Source of the DNA: Veillonella sp. T11011-6 | GTDB lineage: Bacteria > Bacillota > Negativicutes > Veillonellales > Veillonellaceae | Length of the DNA: 64,000 nt | Reading direction: 5' to 3' | Assembly (NCBI RefSeq): GCF_002959755.1 | Contig: NZ_PPCW01000004.1 | Location: forward strand, 186,001-250,000 | Shown here: positions 11,296-25,993 of the stretch, one piece after another | Numbering within the stretch: position 1 is the first letter of the stretch | Layout of the letters: every line of letters starts with the position of its first letter | Translations under genes and position numbers: made by a program | Notes under the pieces: model-generated | The model's database searches: none | Seen by the model: the letters and a program-made list of their open reading frames with translations, nothing else | What the model was told of the DNA's origin: nothing

Positions 11296-12849
11296 TTATT
11301 TACGCTTCAAATCTTTCGTAATGATGTAGTATTCTGATGGAGATATTTTGATATCATCAATATGTTTATTTCCTACAATATTAATCTTAGGGTATCCAAG
11401 GAATAATGCTACAGAGTCATCAAGCATCAATTGTTGTGCATTGATAACTGCATTTCTGCGTACCACTGGATCATTGGCGCTTTCACCAAGAGTTAACAAT
11501 TCATCAAAACGTGGATTAGAGAATCCAGAACCATTCGTTTCAGAACCTGTTCCCCAATATTGTTTCAAGAACCATACTGGTTGTCCTGTATTGGCCGTTA
11601 CTACACTAGAGATTAACATATCGTAATCGCCGGACTGCGCTAATGTGTCAATCACTGCATAGTCTACAATCTTGATGTGTAAATCTACACCGATTTTCTT
11701 ATAGTCTGCTTGTAATGCTTCTGCATATAATGGCAATTCAGGTCGAGATGTATACGCATAGAAATCTAGCACTAGATTTTCGCCATCTTTATCGACAATG
11801 CCATCGCCATTCGTATCTACGTAACCTTCTTGTTTCAACAAGGCTTTGGCACGTTCCACATTGTAGCCATTAGGGTCCCGCAATTGATTAAATCCATAAT
11901 CAATAGATGGTGGCAATGGAGCCTTACCAGCGATAAATGTATCCTTCATCAAGTTCTTCGCATAGGACTCACGATCTGCTGCTGCAATGAGAGCCGCTCG
12001 AAGATTAGCATTTTTGAGCTTTCCTTTTTGACTCATACGAACGAATACATCTCTAAGAGATGACTCTTCATAGATTGTAAAGTTCTTATCGTTTTGGAAG
12101 ATGCTGTATTCACCAGGACCAATGCTAATAGCCATATCTACATCGCCTGCTTGTAGTGCCATAGCACGCGTATTCGCATCGTTAATAGAAGGAATTTCAA
12201 CCTTGGCAAAACCAGCTTTACCATCCCAGTAATTTTCATTTCTAGCGAGCTCAGCCCGTTCCTTTGTAAAGGATTTCACCACATAAGGACCTGTACCGAT
12301 TGGGCCTTCCTTCGCTATATCACGACCATTTGCCTCAGCCGTTACATCCATAATCAAGAATAATGGATCCCCCAACAAGTTTGGCAAATTATAATAGGGT
12401 TTATCAGTCTTAATGGTAAGCTCTTGTCCATTAGCTGTCATTTCTGTGTAGTTAAAGAATGACTTAGCTCGTTTACTCTTAGCAAAGGTTCTTTCCAAGG
12501 ATGCTTTTACAGCCTCTGCTGTAAGAGGATTACCATTGGAGAACTTAACCTTATCGTTGATGGTGAAAGTCCAGCTCATCTTATCATCGCTTTGTTTCCA
12601 TGATGTTGCCAACCATGGTGTAGCATTCATATGGTCATCAAATTTTATGAGTGTTTCACCAACACCATATCGCACAACGGCCCAACTAAAATAATTTTCC
12701 GTTGGTTCTAATGTACCAGCAAAGCTAATAGCCCCTACCTTTAATACATCATTAGATGAATTAGATGATTGATTCATACAACCTACAGTACTAAGCAATG
12801 TGACACCAAGAGTCATGCCAATTAATAAAGCCTTACGCAGTCCTTTCAT
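11296..12849 (-). CDS. Second lipoprotein substrate-binding protein, nickel/peptide ABC type
   Basis: SBP family 5 (NikA/DppA/OppA type) periplasmic binding protein of 517 residues with a lipoprotein signal: MKGLRKALLIGMTLG..., lipobox LSTVGC, lipidated Cys24. It is a close paralog of the binding protein at 14768-16336. Both share DVLKVG near the start, RYGVGET, GPIGTGPYVVKSFTKERAE, and an NTGQPVWFL / NTGDPIWFL match. It lies beyond the terminator of the five-gene importer operon and has its own promoter, so it is a separate unit. It probably feeds the same permeases with a related ligand. The ligand could be a metal chelate or peptide; the promoter operator favours metal. AGGTG precedes the ATG. 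Confidence 0.85.
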   Translation of the reverse strand: MKGLRKALLIGMTLGVTLLSTVGCMNQSSNSSNDVLKVGAISFAGTLEPTENYFSWAVVRYGVGETLIKFDDHMNATPWLATSWKQSDDKMSWTFTINDKVKFSNGNPLTAEAVKASLERTFAKSKRAKSFFNYTEMTANGQELTIKTDKPYYNLPNLLGDPLFLIMDVTAEANGRDIAKEGPIGTGPYVVKSFTKERAELARNENYWDGKAGFAKVEIPSINDANTRAMALQAGDVDMAISIGPGEYSIFQNDKNFTIYEESSLRDVFVRMSQKGKLKNANLRAALIAAADRESYAKNLMKDTFIAGKAPLPPSIDYGFNQLRDPNGYNVERAKALLKQEGYVDTNGDGIVDKDGENLVLDFYAYTSRPELPLYAEALQADYKKIGVDLHIKIVDYAVIDTLAQSGDYDMLISSVVTANTGQPVWFLKQYWGTGSETNGSGFSNPRFDELLTLGESANDPVVRRNAVINAQQLMLDDSVALFLGYPKINIVGNKHIDDIKISPSEYYIITKDLKRK

Positions 12850-12908
12850 TTACACCTATCCTTTTCCTATATATCTATATGTATATCACTTCATATGAGC
12901 ATATTTTA

Positions 12909-12940
12909 ATTATACCCATGGGGGTATATTGCTTAGTCAA
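12909..12940 (-). promoter_or_regulatory. Promoter with CsoR/RcnR-like operator in the spacer
   Basis: Minus-strand -35 TTGACT (12940-12935) and -10 TATAAT (12914-12909) are separated by 20 bases, longer than normal. The spacer and the -10 edge hold a 7+7 inverted repeat, TATACCC-4-GGGTATA (12911-12928). TACCC...GGGTA dyads are operators of CsoR-family copper sensors. A 19-20 base spacer holding a dyad is also typical of MerR-family promoters. Drives the binding-protein gene ending at 11296. Confidence 0.55.
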
Positions 12941-13026
12941 CTATACTATATATTCAGTGTTAACACAATCTTTTTTAAGAAAAATTTCGATATATTTGCA
13001 TGTATGTGAGAATAGCTTTGTAAACG

Positions 13027-13064
13027 AAAAAATAGCAGTTAGCCATTTGGCTAACTGCTATTTT
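13027..13064 (-). terminator. Terminator of the importer operon
   Basis: Stem AATAGCAGTTAGCC / GGCTAACTGCTATT with a 4-base loop runs into an A/T tract (Ts on the minus strand). It lies about 85 bases after the last ATPase gene and ends the five-gene operon before the second binding-protein promoter. Confidence 0.88.
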
Positions 13065-13149
13065 ATATACCTATTATTTTCCTACTATAGTAAGCGATTC
13101 ATCTCAGACAGTGCCTATAGTAAAAGCACTGATACATTATACTGAAACC

Positions 13150-13965
13150 TTATGCTTCTTTAGTCGCTTCTTCTAACGTAAGCGGCTTATGATCTTTACC
13201 AATTTCAAAGATAGAGCTCAACAGAACCTTCGTATAAGGATGTTTTGCATCTGCTAAATGGAATGCATCTAGCTCTTCAACAATAGCACCTTTATACATA
13301 ACCACTACCTTATGGCACATGGTACGAATGAACGCAATGTCATGCGCAATGAATAGGTATGTTAAGTTTTTCTTCTTTTGTAAACGCGCTAATAGGTACG
13401 CGATAGAGTCCTGTACAGAAACGTCTAGAGCACTTGTTGCTTCATCTAGCACAAGAATTTCCGGTTCCAGTACGATGGCACGGGCAATGGCCACACGTTG
13501 GCGTTGGCCCCCAGACATTTCATGAGGATAGCGATGCATGAACTCACGAGGTAGGTCTACCATCTCAAGATAGTCACCAGCTATTTGTTCTTCTTTGCCC
13601 TTTTCAAGAAGCCCAAAATTGTATAGCGGTTCGAGGATGATATCCTTTACCTTCATACGTGGATTGAAGGCTGCTGATGGATCTTGGAATACCATTTGAA
13701 TCTTCTTGCGGTACTCTTTCGTTTGCTCAGAGTTCATATGTTGGATTTCTACGCCATCTACATAAATCTCACCTTCCGTAATCGGAAGCATCTTCATGAT
13801 CATACGAACCAATGTAGTTTTACCAGAGCCAGATTCCCCTACAATCCCAAGGGACTCGCCTTTTTCTAAGGTGATATTAATACTCTTACACGCTTCGAGC
13901 TCACCACCAGTAGGAAGTGGGAATCGTTTACATACATTTTTTAATTCTACAGCGTAGTTAGTCAA
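13150..13965 (-). CDS. Nickel/peptide-type ABC transporter ATPase (second)
   Basis: Cytoplasmic ATPase subunit (271 residues, DppF/NikE type) that powers the importer. It has Walker A GESGSGKTT, the ABC signature SGGQRQR and Walker B VLDEATSALD. The start is placed at TTG 13965: AAGGAGG lies 8 bases upstream and the reading frame then begins MTNYAVEL, a normal ATPase N-terminus. The longer frame from 13998 would place the ribosome site inside the gene. This start overlaps the previous ATPase gene's stop by 8 bases, so translation is coupled. It pairs with the ATPase at 13958-14755 as a heterodimer. Confidence 0.88.
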   Translation of the reverse strand: MTNYAVELKNVCKRFPLPTGGELEACKSINITLEKGESLGIVGESGSGKTTLVRMIMKMLPITEGEIYVDGVEIQHMNSEQTKEYRKKIQMVFQDPSAAFNPRMKVKDIILEPLYNFGLLEKGKEEQIAGDYLEMVDLPREFMHRYPHEMSGGQRQRVAIARAIVLEPEILVLDEATSALDVSVQDSIAYLLARLQKKKNLTYLFIAHDIAFIRTMCHKVVVMYKGAIVEELDAFHLADAKHPYTKVLLSSIFEIGKDHKPLTLEEATKEA

Positions 13966-14755
13966 TGTAACGACCTCCTTCCAATGTTGGTACAGCATCT
14001 TTTAATTGTTTCGTATATTCATTAGATGGGTTTTCTAAAATATCTTGCGGTGTGCCAGCATCAACAACACGGCCCTTTTTCATAACAATGATATAGTCGG
14101 ACATATAGGCCGCTACACCAAGGTTATGCGTAACCATTACGATAGCAGAATTATGCTCTTTAGCAAGTTCTAGCATTTGCATAACTACTTGAGATTGTGT
14201 TGTTACATCTAAAGCAGATGTAGGTTCATCACCAATTAATAACGCAGGATCCAGCGCTAATGCCATAGCAATGCCCACACGTTGGCGTTGACCGCCGGAT
14301 AACTCATGTGGATAACGGCGCAATATATCTGCCCCATTAGGGAGAGAAACAGATTCTAATAACTCAATTGCTCGTCGATCACATTCATCATTGGTAATTT
14401 CTATATGAGATTTAAATAATTCTCTAAACTGTTTACCAATGCGAACTATTGGGTCTAAAGCACTACCACTATCTTGGAAAATCATGGCCATGTCTTTACC
14501 ACGTATAGCTCTCCATTCAGACTTAGATAGGGTGCGAAGGTCTTGACCATTAAAGAGCATTGTACCATCTGTGACCTCACCACCTATAGGCAATAAACCC
14601 ATGAGGGCCCGGATCACGGTAGTTTTACCGGATCCAGATTCCCCTACAATGGTCAATACCTTACCGCGTTCCAAGGTAAAGTTTACATCCATAACAGCAG
14701 GCACACCTTGGTACGCGATGTTAAGGTTCTCTACAGTTAGTATGTTTTCTGCCAT
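13958..14755 (-). CDS. Nickel/peptide-type ABC transporter ATPase (first)
   Basis: ATPase subunit (265 residues, DppD/NikD type). It has Walker A GESGSGKTT near residues 37-45, signature SGGQRQR near 155, and Walker B GDEPTSALD, the GDEPTSALD form typical of the D subunit. AAGGAG lies just before the ATG. It is in an operon with two permeases and a binding protein upstream and the partner ATPase downstream, with an 8-base overlap. Together they form a complete nickel/peptide/opine-type importer. Whether the substrate is cobalt, nickel or a chelate is inferred from the riboswitch, not from this subunit. Confidence 0.88.
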   Translation of the reverse strand: MAENILTVENLNIAYQGVPAVMDVNFTLERGKVLTIVGESGSGKTTVIRALMGLLPIGGEVTDGTMLFNGQDLRTLSKSEWRAIRGKDMAMIFQDSGSALDPIVRIGKQFRELFKSHIEITNDECDRRAIELLESVSLPNGADILRRYPHELSGGQRQRVGIAMALALDPALLIGDEPTSALDVTTQSQVVMQMLELAKEHNSAIVMVTHNLGVAAYMSDYIIVMKKGRVVDAGTPQDILENPSNEYTKQLKDAVPTLEGGRYID

Positions 14756-14767
14756 TATAGCTCCTTA

Positions 14768-16336
14768 TTATTTTGTAATTTTATTAGTAATCCAGTAGTA
14801 GTCACTTGGGTACATGACAGCACCTTTCAAGTAAGAACCAGTAACGATATTAGTTTTAGGGTAACCTAAGAACAATGCAGCACCATCATTCATCAATAAT
14901 TGTTGAATTTGAATTGCATAGTCACGACGTTTTGCAGGATCAAATTCAGTTTCAGCAGCATCTAACAATTGGTCAACTTGTGGATTGGAGTAACCAGAAC
15001 CGTTTTGAGGGTTGGAACCATCCACATTAGTATGCCAGTAGTTAGCTAAGAACCAGATTGGATCGCCTGTATTAGCAGTTACGATGTTGGAGATAAGCAT
15101 ATCATAGTCGCCATCTTGACCCATTTTATCAATCAAGTTATAGTCAACTGTTTTGATTTTCATGTCGATACCCACTTTTTTAAGGTCTGCTTGAACAGCT
15201 TCTGCATAAAGTGGTAATTCTGCACGAGAATTATATACTACGAAGTCAAATGTCAATGGTTTGCCATCTTTATCAAGGATGCCGTCCCCATCAGTATCTT
15301 TCCAACCATCTTCTGCTAATAATTGTTTAGAACGTTCAGGGTTATACGCATTAGGATCTTTCAAATCTTTGAAGCCATAGTCCATGGATGGTGGAATTGG
15401 TGCGGAACCAGGAATGAATGTACCTTTTAACAATACATCAGCATAGTTTTTACGGTCTGTTGCAGAAATAACTGCAGCACGTACTTTGTCATCACCAAGA
15501 ACACCTTTTTGGTTAATACGAGCCAATACGACACGAAGAGATGCGATTTCATCTACTTTGAATTTATCATTGCCTTGGAATAAACCAATTTCACCAGGAC
15601 CGATGTTAACAGCCATATCTACGTCGCCAGATTGTAAGCTCATAGCGCGAGTATTAGGGTCATCGATGGAAGGAATTTCTACAGTTTTAAATGGTACTGT
15701 ACCATCCCAATAGTTTTCGTTAGCAGCCATCTCAGCACGTTCTTTTGTGAAAGATTTAACTACGTATGGACCTGTACCAATAGGACCTTCCTTCGCAAAG
15801 TTACGGCCATCTTTTTCAGATTGTACATCAACGATTAGGAATAACGGATCCGCTAAAAGGCCAGGCATATTAGGATATTCTTTTGTTGTATGAATAACTA
15901 ATTGTTGACCATTAGCTTCCATAGAGTCATATTCGAAGAATGTTTTTGCACGATTGGATTTTTCAAAAGCCCGTTCGATAGATGCTTTAACTGCTGCAGC
16001 ATCAACTTTTTTACCATTAGAGAATTTCACCTTATCATTGATTGTGAAAGTCCACGTTTTATGGTCTGGGGATACTTCCCATTTAGATGCAATCCATGGT
16101 TGAGGTTTCATTTGTTCGTCAAACTTAGCCAATGTTTCGCCTACACCATAGCGCATAACAACCCATGCGAAGAAGTTTTCTGTAGGTTCTAATGTGGATG
16201 CAAAGTTAGTTACACCAACTTTTAAAACATCCTTATTAGCAGCACCACTATTATCAGAGCCGCAACCAGCGATGAAGGAACCCATCATTACAATGCTAAG
16301 ACCTGCTAAGAGGGCTTTTTTCCAAGATTTTTTCAT
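14768..16336 (-). CDS. Lipoprotein substrate-binding protein of the importer
   Basis: SBP family 5 binding protein (NikA/DppA type), 522 residues, tethered outside the inner membrane. The lipoprotein signal is MKKSWKKALLAGLSIVMMG with lipobox SFIAGC. The start at 16336 is chosen because AAGGAG lies 8-9 bases upstream and it opens a clean signal peptide; the longer frame has no signal. The mature protein begins near a Gly/Ala/Ser linker, followed by DVLKVGVTNFASTLEPTENF. Strongly paralogous to the 11296-12849 protein. Third gene of the operon whose leader is a cobalamin riboswitch. NikA-type proteins bind nickel or cobalt chelates, DppA types dipeptides; residues do not settle which. Confidence 0.87.
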   Translation of the reverse strand: MKKSWKKALLAGLSIVMMGSFIAGCGSDNSGAANKDVLKVGVTNFASTLEPTENFFAWVVMRYGVGETLAKFDEQMKPQPWIASKWEVSPDHKTWTFTINDKVKFSNGKKVDAAAVKASIERAFEKSNRAKTFFEYDSMEANGQQLVIHTTKEYPNMPGLLADPLFLIVDVQSEKDGRNFAKEGPIGTGPYVVKSFTKERAEMAANENYWDGTVPFKTVEIPSIDDPNTRAMSLQSGDVDMAVNIGPGEIGLFQGNDKFKVDEIASLRVVLARINQKGVLGDDKVRAAVISATDRKNYADVLLKGTFIPGSAPIPPSMDYGFKDLKDPNAYNPERSKQLLAEDGWKDTDGDGILDKDGKPLTFDFVVYNSRAELPLYAEAVQADLKKVGIDMKIKTVDYNLIDKMGQDGDYDMLISNIVTANTGDPIWFLANYWHTNVDGSNPQNGSGYSNPQVDQLLDAAETEFDPAKRRDYAIQIQQLLMNDGAALFLGYPKTNIVTGSYLKGAVMYPSDYYWITNKITK

Positions 16337-16485
16337 GTAAAATCTCCTTGTACCATTACATATAAACATAAAACATACACATCATGACCACTACAATCTA
16401 CAATAGTCATAATGGAAAAACCTTATTACCGCCTATTTATATAACAACTTTCACAACACAACCTATAAATAAGCATCACACGTAA

Positions 16486-17307
16486 CTAACCTTGGTTCTT
16501 AGGATCCACTACGTCCCGTAAGGAATCAGACCAAAGGTTAAAGATAGCAACTACGATAAGAATGGACATACCAGGGAAGGCCATCAGCCATGGACTGGTT
16601 TGTAAATATTGACGACCTTCGTTGAGCATAAGGCCCCATTCTGGTGTTGGCGGTTGAGCACCAAAACCTAAGAAGGATAGACCTGCTACTTCAATCATGA
16701 TAGCCCCAATATCAAGTGCACCTGTTGTAACAACAAGAGGAAGGATATTGGGAATGATATGACGTCTTAGAATAGTCGTTGTAGAGGCCCCCATCATGAC
16801 AGCCGCCGTTACATACTCTTCACCGCGAACTTTCAACGTCATAGACCGTACAAGACGAGCATATTTTGCCCAACCAACTACAGATAGCGCTATAATCGTA
16901 TTCACAATGCTACCACCCAAAATACCAGCAATGGCAATGGCTAATACTACACCCGGGAAGGATAGCATAATGTCCGCAAGACGCATGAGGACCATTTCGA
17001 TTTTCCCGCCGAAATAACCAGCTACGGCACCGATAATAGTACCAATGCTTACCATGATAACAACGATACTGACACCCATAAACAAGGATAACTGTGTACC
17101 ATAAATGATGCGAGACAATACATCACGACCAAGCTTATCTGTACCAAACCAATGTTGACTACTTGGCGCTTGTAATGCTTGACTCAGATTTGAGCTAAAA
17201 GCATCACCCGGAGCAAGCCATGGTGCAAATATAGCTATGAGAACTACCACAATCATCAAGGCACTGTAGAAAGAGAACAATTTATGTTTTTGAATAAATT
17301 CTGCCAT
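16486..17307 (-). CDS. Nickel/peptide-type ABC permease, NikC/DppC type
   Basis: Inner-membrane permease of 273 residues with about six helices and the binding-protein-dependent transport loop RHIIPNILPLVVTTGALDIGAIM. The N-terminal periplasmic insertion with SQHWFGTDKLGRDVLSRIIYG is characteristic of DppC/NikC subunits. The ATG overlaps the stop of the partner permease by one base (TAATG), indicating translational coupling. A 149-base gap follows before the binding-protein gene. No terminator is visible there. Confidence 0.88.
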   Translation of the reverse strand: MAEFIQKHKLFSFYSALMIVVVLIAIFAPWLAPGDAFSSNLSQALQAPSSQHWFGTDKLGRDVLSRIIYGTQLSLFMGVSIVVIMVSIGTIIGAVAGYFGGKIEMVLMRLADIMLSFPGVVLAIAIAGILGGSIVNTIIALSVVGWAKYARLVRSMTLKVRGEEYVTAAVMMGASTTTILRRHIIPNILPLVVTTGALDIGAIMIEVAGLSFLGFGAQPPTPEWGLMLNEGRQYLQTSPWLMAFPGMSILIVVAIFNLWSDSLRDVVDPKNQG

Positions 17308-18245
17308 TATGCTCTCTCCCTTTTTAATCTAGGGTCTAACAAGATATATGACGCATCAACTAATGCATTAATACACATATATGCTAAGGCAACCCACAAC
17401 ACAAAACCTTCGATCAATGGATAGTCGCGCATGGTAATGGCATATACTGCCATATTCCCAAGGCCAGGCCAGGAGAATACCATTTCAATAACTGCAACAC
17501 CGCCTAATAACCAACCGATAACAACACCCAGTATAGTGATAAGTGGTAATACTGCATTAGGCAAAATATGACCGAATAAAATTTTCATCTCACTCACACC
17601 ACGAGCACGTGCGCCGATAACATAATCCTTTTGCATTTCTTCAAGAATAACGAGACGAACTTGGCGCATGTACTTGGACCCGACTACAACAGCTAATGTA
17701 ACGGCTGGTAGAATTACACCGATAGGAGTTACACGAGAAGATGCAATAGGAACAAGTCCTAATTTAAGGCCAAAGATATAAATCAGTACAAGGCCTAACC
17801 AGAATGATGGCATAGACACGCCTACAAAGGAAGCAACGCGCAACAGATAGTCGATCCATTTGTTTCGATTTAAGGCGCTTATAATCCCTGCCGGCAATGC
17901 ATAAAGCAATGTAAATACTAATGATGTACCTGCTAACATAACTGTCCCTGGCAAAGCCTCCAACATACGATCTACAACAGGCTTTTTAGCAGAGTAACTC
18001 ATCCCTAAGTCACCTTGTGCAGCATTCACAACCCAGTTTGCATATTGCACTATAAACGGTTTATCTAACCCAAGCTGAGCTCGAGTTTCATCGATAAGCT
18101 CCTGAGACACGATAGTATCTGCCGTTTCTAGTAACATCGTAACTGGATCGCCTGGTGCTAAATAAGTGAGACAAAATGTTAAAAAAGTAATGCCAAACAG
18201 TGTAACAATGAATTGACCTAGCTGTTTAGCAAAGCGTTTGCCCAT
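17307..18245 (-). CDS. Nickel/peptide-type ABC permease, NikB/DppB type
   Basis: First gene of the importer operon, a 312-residue permease with about six helices. Family traits: LAPGDPVTMLLE near residue 30, LGLDKPFIVQYANWVVNAAQGDLG in the N-terminal half, and the cytoplasmic ATPase-coupling loop ARGVSEMKILFGHILPNAVLP. It lies about 100 bases downstream of a Rho-independent terminator and cobalamin aptamer, so its expression should fall when adenosylcobalamin is plentiful. Heterodimer partner of the next gene. Confidence 0.9.
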   Translation of the reverse strand: MGKRFAKQLGQFIVTLFGITFLTFCLTYLAPGDPVTMLLETADTIVSQELIDETRAQLGLDKPFIVQYANWVVNAAQGDLGMSYSAKKPVVDRMLEALPGTVMLAGTSLVFTLLYALPAGIISALNRNKWIDYLLRVASFVGVSMPSFWLGLVLIYIFGLKLGLVPIASSRVTPIGVILPAVTLAVVVGSKYMRQVRLVILEEMQKDYVIGARARGVSEMKILFGHILPNAVLPLITILGVVIGWLLGGVAVIEMVFSWPGLGNMAVYAITMRDYPLIEGFVLWVALAYMCINALVDASYILLDPRLKRERA

Positions 18246-18344
18246 AGGCGCCTCCTCCTATACTCTCTAAATACTACAATAATCTAAATGAACAACTAAT
18301 ATGCTTATCTCTCCCGATATAGCAGAGGTGCATATAGGAAAACG

Positions 18345-18373
18345 ACAAAAAAGGTTAGTCCACCTGACTAACC
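18345..18373 (-). terminator. Cobalamin riboswitch expression-platform terminator
   Basis: GGTTAGTC / GACTAACC stem (18353-18360 with 18366-18373) and a six-T tract on the minus strand lie between the aptamer and the first permease gene. It is the likely switch that ends transcription when cobalamin is bound. Confidence 0.85.
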
Positions 18374-18408
18374 TAAATTAAGTATAGTATGTACAATACC
18401 ATATATTT

Positions 18409-18565
18409 AGAGCAGGCTTTCTGACTCATGATTCATCGCAATATTTCGGCCTTCCCAGTTTCCCAGTGACCCTATAATGAAACCTTGCTCCTCATTACAG
18501 CTATTTGCATAGTATGGGATTTACACCCATTTTCCTCTTTTACGCTCGGTGAATACCGACACTCA
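18409..18565 (-). promoter_or_regulatory. Cobalamin riboswitch upstream of the ABC importer operon
   Basis: On the minus strand the order of conserved elements fits a cobalamin aptamer: GGAAAATGGGTGTAAATCCC, GAGGAGCAAGG, GTCACTGGGAAACTGGGAAG (the box region) and the closing AGTCAGAAAGCCTGCTC. These occur in the expected order and spacing over about 155 bases. A terminator hairpin and then the permease gene follow. This places the importer under cobalamin control, which in known systems marks cobalt or cobalamin-precursor uptake. Confidence 0.9.
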
Positions 18566-18626
18566 CTAGTTCATTCATTTTTATCGATTATAAATATACT
18601 ATATTAATATTATGTTTACAATACAT

Positions 18627-18643
18627 ATACCCCTTAGGGGTAT
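18627..18643. promoter_or_regulatory. CsoR/RcnR-like operator before the riboswitch
   Basis: The perfect dyad ATACCCC-TTA-GGGGTAT lies about 60 bases upstream of the aptamer. A plausible minus-strand promoter, TTGTAA then TATATT with a 17-base spacer, lies between the two. The dyad matches the operator found before the second binding-protein gene (12911-12928), so both units probably share one regulator. Confidence 0.55.
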
Positions 18644-25645: not shown

Positions 25646-25675
25646 TTGTATTACAAACTTTACATGGAGTATAAT
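25646..25675 (+). promoter_or_regulatory. Promoter of the CsoR-family gene
   Basis: TTGTAT (25646-25651) and TATAAT (25670-25675) with an 18-base spacer, about 40 bases before the ATG. No TACCC...GGGTA operator is visible here. Confidence 0.5.
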
Positions 25676-25714: not shown

Positions 25715-25993
25715 ATGAAACAATGTATGGATTCAGAAAATCTACATCGTCGATTGCGTAAAATCCTTGGTCAAGTGCAAGCTATTGATCGAATGATTGA
25801 AGAAGACATTCCATGCGAAGATGTGTTGAGCCAAATTAATGCAGCTAAGTCTGCACTACATAAAGTAGGTCAAGTAGTCCTTGAAGGGCATATCAACCAC
25901 TGCGTACGAGATGGTATCGAACACGGTGACGTAGAAAAAACCATTAGCGACTTTACAAAGGCTGTAGAGCGCTTTGCAAACATGGGAAAATAA
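25715..25993 (+). CDS. CsoR/RcnR/FrmR-family metal-sensing repressor
   Basis: A 92-residue all-helical DNA-binding repressor. The start at 25715 is set by GGAGGAG just upstream; a longer frame has no site. It carries the family's metal-ligand pattern Cys34-x24-His59-x3-Cys63. This is the Cys-His-Cys set of copper CsoR and nickel InrS, whereas RcnR has His in the last position. Residue 2 is Lys, so the N-terminal His ligand of RcnR/InrS is not in place, although Cys4 and His11 are nearby. These proteins release DNA on metal binding. No copper exporter or chaperone gene is adjacent. It is the only metal regulator in the window and so a candidate for the operators at 12911 and 18627. Confidence 0.85.
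   Translation: MKQCMDSENLHRRLRKILGQVQAIDRMIEEDIPCEDVLSQINAAKSALHKVGQVVLEGHINHCVRDGIEHGDVEKTISDFTKAVERFANMGK

Follow-up and report, generated by a model that had tools for sequence, protein, structure and literature searches.

The Nik/Opp2-type ATP-binding cassette (ABC) importer operon of Veillonella sp. T11011-6 is preceded by a cobalamin riboswitch and, upstream of its promoter, by a dyad that resembles the operators of CsoR-family metal sensors. We analyzed both elements in a window of 64,000 nucleotides (positions 186001-250000 of contig C4, NZ_PPCW01000004.1, of the 2.05 Mb genome, here G000), together with the sole CsoR-family protein of that genome, which is encoded in the same window (Table 1). 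Our preferred reading, to which we assign a probability of about 0.45, is that this CsoR is a cobalt or nickel sensor that represses metal export and activates metal uptake, and that vitamin B12 then attenuates nik. Metal-free CsoR would bind the box 5' of a weak -35 hexamer, with the box centered at about -49, and would activate nik and, where they are present, exbB-exbD-tonB and TonB receptor genes; from boxes in and below the exporter promoter, it would repress a P-type ATPase exporter. Metal would release CsoR from both kinds of site, turning uptake off and export on. As a second tier, the cobalamin riboswitch in the nascent nik leader would terminate transcription when corrinoid is plentiful.

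What the computation provides for this reading is the aptamer and the terminator; the box, where it lies and how well it is conserved; the co-occurrence of csoR, the box and the exporter across Clostridia; and the spread of the element over uptake genes. An aptamer plus a CsoR-like box upstream of the promoter is the layout that the two-tier control proposed in the initial annotation of this DNA would need.

The dyad and the riboswitch upstream of nik

The perfect dyad ATACCCC-TTA-GGGGTAT of the initial annotation is present as described, as ATACCCCTTAGGGGTAT (one match with no mismatch; window shuffles gave 1.3 at up to three mismatches), and TACCCCNNNGGGGTA has one perfect occurrence in the whole genome, at nik. 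A search of the same genome with the first dyad pattern at up to two mismatches returned 26 matches versus 35 in the control, with nothing above control besides the nik site. The perfect palindrome did not hold up as a conserved feature: ATACCCC-N3-GGGGTAT occurs in only 3 of the 14 Veillonella genomes, and conservation lies instead in the right arm and in the distance from that arm to the -35 hexamer. Directly 3' of the dyad lies a promoter-like TTGTAA-17-TATATT pair. Because promoter-like matches in the nik upstream region are no commoner than in shuffles (2 versus 5.6), the assignment of this promoter rests on conservation.

The element is found at nik in 13 of the 14 Veillonella genomes, at a fixed distance from the -10 hexamer in every one of the 13. 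Among seven representatives, mean identity is 0.94 in the right arm (TARGGGGTAT), 0.83 in the stretch through the -35 and 0.88 around the -10; it is 0.57 in the -35/-10 spacer, 0.55 in the left arm and 0.33-0.38 farther upstream. The full dyad, TACCNNTARGGGGTA, is kept at 10 of the 13 nik sites. In G003 the aptamer at nik has been lost and the element kept, and the nik locus of G007 has neither; the aptamer is thus present at nik in 12 of the 14 genomes.

The window contains a single match to RF00174 (cmscan, 69.1 bits; gathering threshold 31.5), complete over model positions 1-189, so that the Rfam comparison bears out the aptamer. The terminator that had been placed 3' of the aptamer is found as well: in the free fold, 8 of the 9 pairs of the hairpin have a probability of at least 0.99. 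The predicted fold of the expression platform includes both an L13-type hairpin and this terminator, and the riboswitch would be of the OFF sense. An alternative pairing that might take part in switching, CUAAAU/AUUUAG, is 1.9 kcal/mol less stable than the terminator fold.

Other cobalamin riboswitches were seen in the genus. In G000 itself, a match of 102 bits (G000:C4:448808-448983; L181:4910-10984, minus strand) stands ahead of genes that read as mutA-, mutB- and meaB-like; a V. parvula mutA riboswitch appears in published work (PMC9600662). Another strong riboswitch, of 101 bits (G000:C1:850100-850271; L182:7101-7272, minus strand), has no convincing protein gene behind it, where we find terminator-like sequences, a tRNA-Leu and a long mfd-like open reading frame (ORF); it may control a non-coding RNA, and matches of about 98-105 bits recur in other Veillonella genomes. 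In G007 (G007:C1; L191:1488-3877, plus strand), a weak cobalamin riboswitch of 65.5 bits precedes a CbiK-like gene and a periplasmic binding protein.

Related boxes at other uptake genes and at exporters

A sequence-only profile built from the 13 nik sites was run on 28 genomes of the family, with scoring limited to the 150 best first-look candidates from each genome. Among these candidates, scores weaker than those at nik marked exbB-exbD-tonB-TonB receptor operons, a pair of TonB receptors in G013, and P-type ATPase genes with tandem boxes; the remaining weak matches fell in coding or unclear places. Scored with the box matrix, the exbB orthologues (6 of 6) reached 17.4-21.4, while 23 of 24 other ExbB loci stayed at or below 6.7 and one reached 13.3 (loci were available, and scored, for 30 of the 35 ExbB matches). 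The exact uptake element TARGGGGTATRKGT occurs at 15 places in the 14 genomes: 11 at nik, 2 at exbB and 2 at TonB receptors.

To place csoR itself, we kept 80 loci of its subfamily (74 outside Veillonella, 6 within) from at least 518 stretches that encode a relative; some loci are cut by contig ends. A P-type ATPase exporter, at 55-74% identity, lies in 58 of the 74 non-Veillonella loci, mostly directly adjoining csoR, and in none of the 6 Veillonella loci. Within 1 kb downstream of csoR, TACCNNTANGGGTA or its complement stands in 46 of the 74 non-Veillonella loci, versus 0 of 74 for the reversed pattern and 1 occurrence in 664 kb elsewhere. The neighboring genus g4 has tandem boxes between csoR and the ATPase in four loci (L096, L097, L099, L100); in L098 the contig ends before csoR. 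We claim no wider clostridial regulon, since the exporter 14-mer at up to one mismatch has fewer matches than its backward control in 9 of ten clostridial genomes. Its zero-mismatch places in these genomes are 10 distinct ones, 9 of them at the csoR locus, as reckoned from coordinates, and one not (G031:C6:1878933).

Within Veillonella, csoR is present in all 14 genomes (one family gene in 13, two in G001), and its exporter partner is decaying: an intact orthologue of the ATPase is left in G001, G004 and G010, and the gene is split into two pieces in G003, reduced to a remnant in G002, G005, G006, G008, G009 and G012, and unrecognizable in G000, G007, G011 and G013, where the only matches are at 46% or less. 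Except in G007, the persistence of csoR alongside this decay is consistent with retention of the regulator for uptake.

Two further arrangements were noted. A gene of about 263-268 codons (L180:2183-2974, minus strand, G000:C4) has a CPC-like motif and resembles the membrane portion of a P-type ATPase, but it is too short for the catalytic domains and has no NCBIfam match at 1e-10; related matches are present in nine further genomes of Veillonella. Upstream of this gene, a CsoR-like box is found in G008 and G011 and, in partial form, in G003, and no box scoring 10 or more was found near the G000 copy. In a Blautia metagenome-assembled genome (L265:8001-15493, plus strand), csoR is followed on the same strand by a DnaJ-like gene, then the exporter ATPase and a nikB-nikC-nikA-like set, with a CsoR box near the ATPase start, so that exporter and importer are adjacent in another lineage.

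Box position and the sign of control

All sites were scored with one promoter-scoring script that allowed a 19-nt spacer. Across 56 loci, the first exporter box lies in the -35/-10 spacer in 41, downstream of the -10 in 14 and upstream in 1. In 39 of the 56, the highest-scoring promoter pair agrees with the consensus at 11 or 12 of 12 positions. The eleven exporter boxes of the family comprise 4 spacer and 7 downstream cases. In 17 of 19 scored cases, uptake boxes are placed upstream of the -35, with centers at -48.5 to -50.5 and promoter pairs that match 8-9 of 12 positions. These 19 come from 21 known uptake sites, the exbB sites L154 and L155 being outside the script window. The nik site of L022 was assigned to an equal-score alternative promoter, though TTGT..-17-TATATT is present, and one TonB site to another promoter. 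An earlier scoring had classed 3 of 45 exporter sites with a promoter score of at least 9 as upstream (L212, L213, L215); by eye, these have TTGACA and a longer spacer around the box. As to orientation, the C-rich arm comes first at 56 exporter sites versus 6, and at nik the G-rich arm is second in all 13.

Such an arrangement would be expected of a single protein that acts as a repressor at the exporter and as an activator at uptake genes. It suggests an answer to the puzzle raised by the initial annotation, that a repressor-type box should be odd on an importer: a box that lies 5' of a weak -35 and is oriented opposite to most exporter boxes would sit in an activator position. We put forward tentatively, as a possibility short of an even chance, that a cobalt sensor changes sign with operator position, acting as an exporter repressor and as an activator of importer and TonB-linked uptake from a reversed box near -50; the exporter would have been lost or decayed in most Veillonella, with the repressor surviving for uptake.

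The CsoR-family regulator

The candidate regulator matches PF02583 (CsoR/RcnR, DUF156) at 90.9 bits against a cut-off of 22.8, in line with its earlier assignment to the family. All 81 proteins compared share C4, H11, C34, H59, H62, C63 and H70, of which C34, H59 and C63 form the Cys-His-Cys ligand set, and all 81 also have Pro33, directly before the first ligand Cys. At this position the GtCsoR chain and a second protein of the family, CsoR2, have Tyr. Copper sensing by the window CsoR is less likely because of this Pro in place of the copper-type Tyr, because the neighboring ATPase is a different one and because the separate, Tyr-bearing csoR2 exists. The window CsoR also falls below the NCBIfam equivalog cut-off for the E. 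coli type of RcnR (39.1 bits; cut-off 138) and below that of the RicR model (65.5 bits; cut-off 175). NikR was rejected as the regulator, being found in 0 of the 14 Veillonella genomes. No autoregulatory box of the searched form was seen near Veillonella csoR. We assign this CsoR to the nik box from the likeness of the box sequences and from csoR neighborhoods in other genomes, and we lean towards the view that it does bind there.

The copper-type csoR2 lies in G023 (G023:C4; L102:1098-3559, minus strand) beside a CopA-type ATPase, with the box TACCCCTAGGGGGTA upstream, and also occurs in G001 (L046).

The operon and its metal

The five-gene ABC operon reported initially is confirmed: genes of Nik/Opp2 type encode NikB, NikC, a substrate-binding protein (SBP) and two ATPases (18245 to 13150, minus strand; Table 1). 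The interval given for it, 11296-18643, also spans a second NikA-like SBP, which may be its own unit because a terminator-like hairpin precedes it. Both permeases pass the NCBIfam cut-offs for the nickel-type Opp2 families, and both SBPs miss the NikA equivalog cut-off of 393 (183.3 and 180.2 bits) and have nickel-binding proteins as their best structure-level matches. NikB is present in all 14 Veillonella genomes; its identity is at least 77% in 13 of them and 54% in G007.

Table 1. Features of the nik locus and the csoR gene, in window coordinates.
Feature	Position	Strand	Remarks
CsoR-family regulator, proposed to act on the box	25715..25993	+	PF02583; ORF listed from TTG at 25646
CsoR-like box ATACCCCTAAGGGGTAT, 5' of the nik -35	18627..18643	-	candidate site; full conserved element about 18644-18615
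Weak -35 hexamer TTGTAA	18616..18621	-	TTGT..-17-TATATT in 13 of 13
-10 hexamer TATATT	18593..18598	-	predicted
Cobalamin riboswitch aptamer	18394..18581	-	RF00174, cmscan 69.1 bits
P13-like hairpin UAUGGUAU-UGUAC-AUACUAUA, expression platform	18383..18403	-	L5 kissing by inspection only
Intrinsic terminator, then T run, ahead of first gene	18352..18374	-	
NikB/Opp2B-type permease	17307..18245	-	NCBIfam NF045470, 366.8 bits (cut-off 350)
NikC/Opp2C-type permease	16486..17307	-	NCBIfam NF045474, 335.3 bits (cut-off 300)
NikA-like SBP	14768..16369	-	PF00496, 288 bits; Opp5A_nikA 336.7, under cut-off of 600
NikD/OppD-type ATPase	13958..14755	-	under specific cut-offs
NikE/OppF-type ATPase	13150..13998	-	under specific cut-offs
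Terminator-like hairpin, 3' of fifth gene	13029..13064	-	
Second NikA-like SBP, perhaps a separate unit	11296..12849	-	PF00496, 269 bits; Opp5A_nikA 345.8, under cut-off

This operon probably serves Veillonella as its main importer of cobalt. We favor cobalt, as the initial annotation did, because of the B12 aptamer on the operon, because V. parvula is described as making the corrinoid CreCba (PMC9600662) and because CbiM turned up in just one of the 14 genomes, G007, whose nik locus lacks both aptamer and box. Nickel or a metal chelate is a possible cargo because the SBPs match nickel-binding proteins best.

Alternative explanations

Several observations weigh against our reading. The left arm is degenerate at 3 of the 13 nik sites and at the exbB sites, and the nik boxes are 15-mers (TACCNNTARGGGGTA), with one more base between the arms than the 14-mer boxes of the exporters. 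G007 keeps csoR with neither a nik box nor an exporter orthologue, and no target was found there. In g4, four genomes (G021, G022, G026 and G027; L091-L094) carry two dyads about 23 bp apart, roughly 213 nt 5' of the nik aptamer; these have another geometry, with TATAAT-like sequence at their ends and near a possible -10, and as a promoter class they fitted neither the exporter nor the uptake layout. Pattern counts are no help: TARGGGGTATRKGT at up to one mismatch gave 62 matches versus 98 for the backward control, which is not the rarer, and exact TACCNNTARGGGGTA in 53 genomes of the order gave 16 versus 23. Since such counts do not exceed their controls, only the places of the matches, not their number, carry evidence. 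Within Veillonella, exact TACCNNTARGGGGTA occurs 10 times (control 7), always at nik; the six matches outside the genus comprise four in coding sequence, one at a csoR2-copA locus and one in a gene-free stretch of G044 about 235 nt from the next gene.

The extra base between the arms leaves room for another regulator, which would recognize TARGGGGTATRKGT as an asymmetric uptake element of nik, exbB and TonB receptor genes, the likeness to CsoR boxes being partly coincidence. The right arm is conserved together with the interval down to the -35, and the left arm is not, which agrees with this view, as does the retention of csoR in G007 without an element at nik. We consider it doubtful, yet a serious contender: the full CsoR-like dyad is kept at most nik sites, NikR is absent, and the profile found the csoR-exporter boxes even though it was not built from them. 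It is quite unlikely that CsoR at nik is instead a plain repressor released by metal, with induction of the importer by metal, or by one that it does not carry. A review describes CsoR/RcnR proteins as typically de-repressors (PMC7689651), related exporter boxes are placed as for repression, and the g4 dyads near nik overlap a possible -10; but nearly all the uptake boxes lie 5' of a weak -35, in the opposite orientation to most exporter boxes, and metal-induced import of metal is physiologically hard to explain.

Could the riboswitch control nik by itself, the element being a promoter feature that has no dedicated regulator and that is symmetrical in three genomes by chance? There is precedent for a B12 riboswitch ahead of NikABCDE (PMC2667541) and for a nikA riboswitch in S. 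ovata (PMC9600662), and perfect symmetry is indeed confined to 3 of 14 genomes. We nevertheless give this view very little weight, as G003 kept the element after losing the aptamer and as the element also precedes exbB and TonB genes. A different kind of alternative concerns the cargo: the importer may carry nickel, a metal chelate or a peptide, and the sensor may be a nickel sensor like InrS of Synechocystis. The permeases meet models named for nickel permeases, the SBPs match nickel-binding structures best, and CsoR, like InrS, has Pro before the ligand Cys. Set against these are the B12 aptamer on the operon, the lack of a CbiM match in 13 of the 14 genomes and the SBP scores below the NikA cut-offs; moreover, the stretch around what we take to be the metal-site His of E. 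coli NikA is not kept in the SBPs. On balance we regard a nickel, chelate or peptide importer as rather unlikely.

Discussion

The closest known system is InrS, a Ni(II) sensor of the CsoR/RcnR family that, as summarized in a review (PMC7055735), controls the exporter nrsD, binds upstream of nik and enhances import genes. The window CsoR resembles it in its Cys-x24-His-x3-Cys ligands and in the Pro before the first Cys. An InrS-like layout, with related boxes at both nik and the exporter, also exists within the genus (G004, G010 and G001); in G000 itself only the nik box was found. Unlike InrS, the Veillonella regulator would act on an importer with a cobalamin riboswitch, belongs to a clostridial MKQCMD subfamily found beside a P-type ATPase and would probably respond to cobalt, and activation by it is suggested by box position.

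Each tier thus has precedents: control of nik by a B12 riboswitch is already known, and CsoR-family control of a nickel importer is reported for InrS. NikABCDE systems behind B12 riboswitches in C. tetani and D. hafniense were predicted to carry cobalt (PMC2667541), and the nikA riboswitch of S. ovata has been used in reporters (PMC9600662). The Veillonella operon is like these in having a Nik-type importer behind a cobalamin riboswitch; in their relevant passages, those accounts mention no sensor-protein box. RcnR and DmeR, of the CsoR/RcnR family, repress metal exporters and respond to Co and Ni, and in the sections of PMC7689651 that treat them they are described for exporters only, whereas here a similar box stands at an importer, upstream of the -35. 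The TonB and ExbB candidate targets recall the regulon of H. pylori NikR, which controls TonB-linked uptake, including exbB/exbD, for nickel (PMC7055735); in contrast to H. pylori, all 14 Veillonella genomes lack NikR, and the box is CsoR-like. Among the papers listed by a literature search that covered few subscription titles, none reports a Veillonella CsoR acting on nik.

According to a 2021 review, cobalt importers had no known protein cobalt sensor among their regulators, and import is commonly under product feedback such as by B12 (PMC7689651). The nik locus is a concrete, testable candidate for protein-sensor control of cobalt import, in a human commensal. If exporter and importer boxes do belong to one regulator, they constitute a natural experiment on sign change in the CsoR family, and the csoR-exporter box across Clostridia provides a precise candidate operator for a large regulator subfamily.

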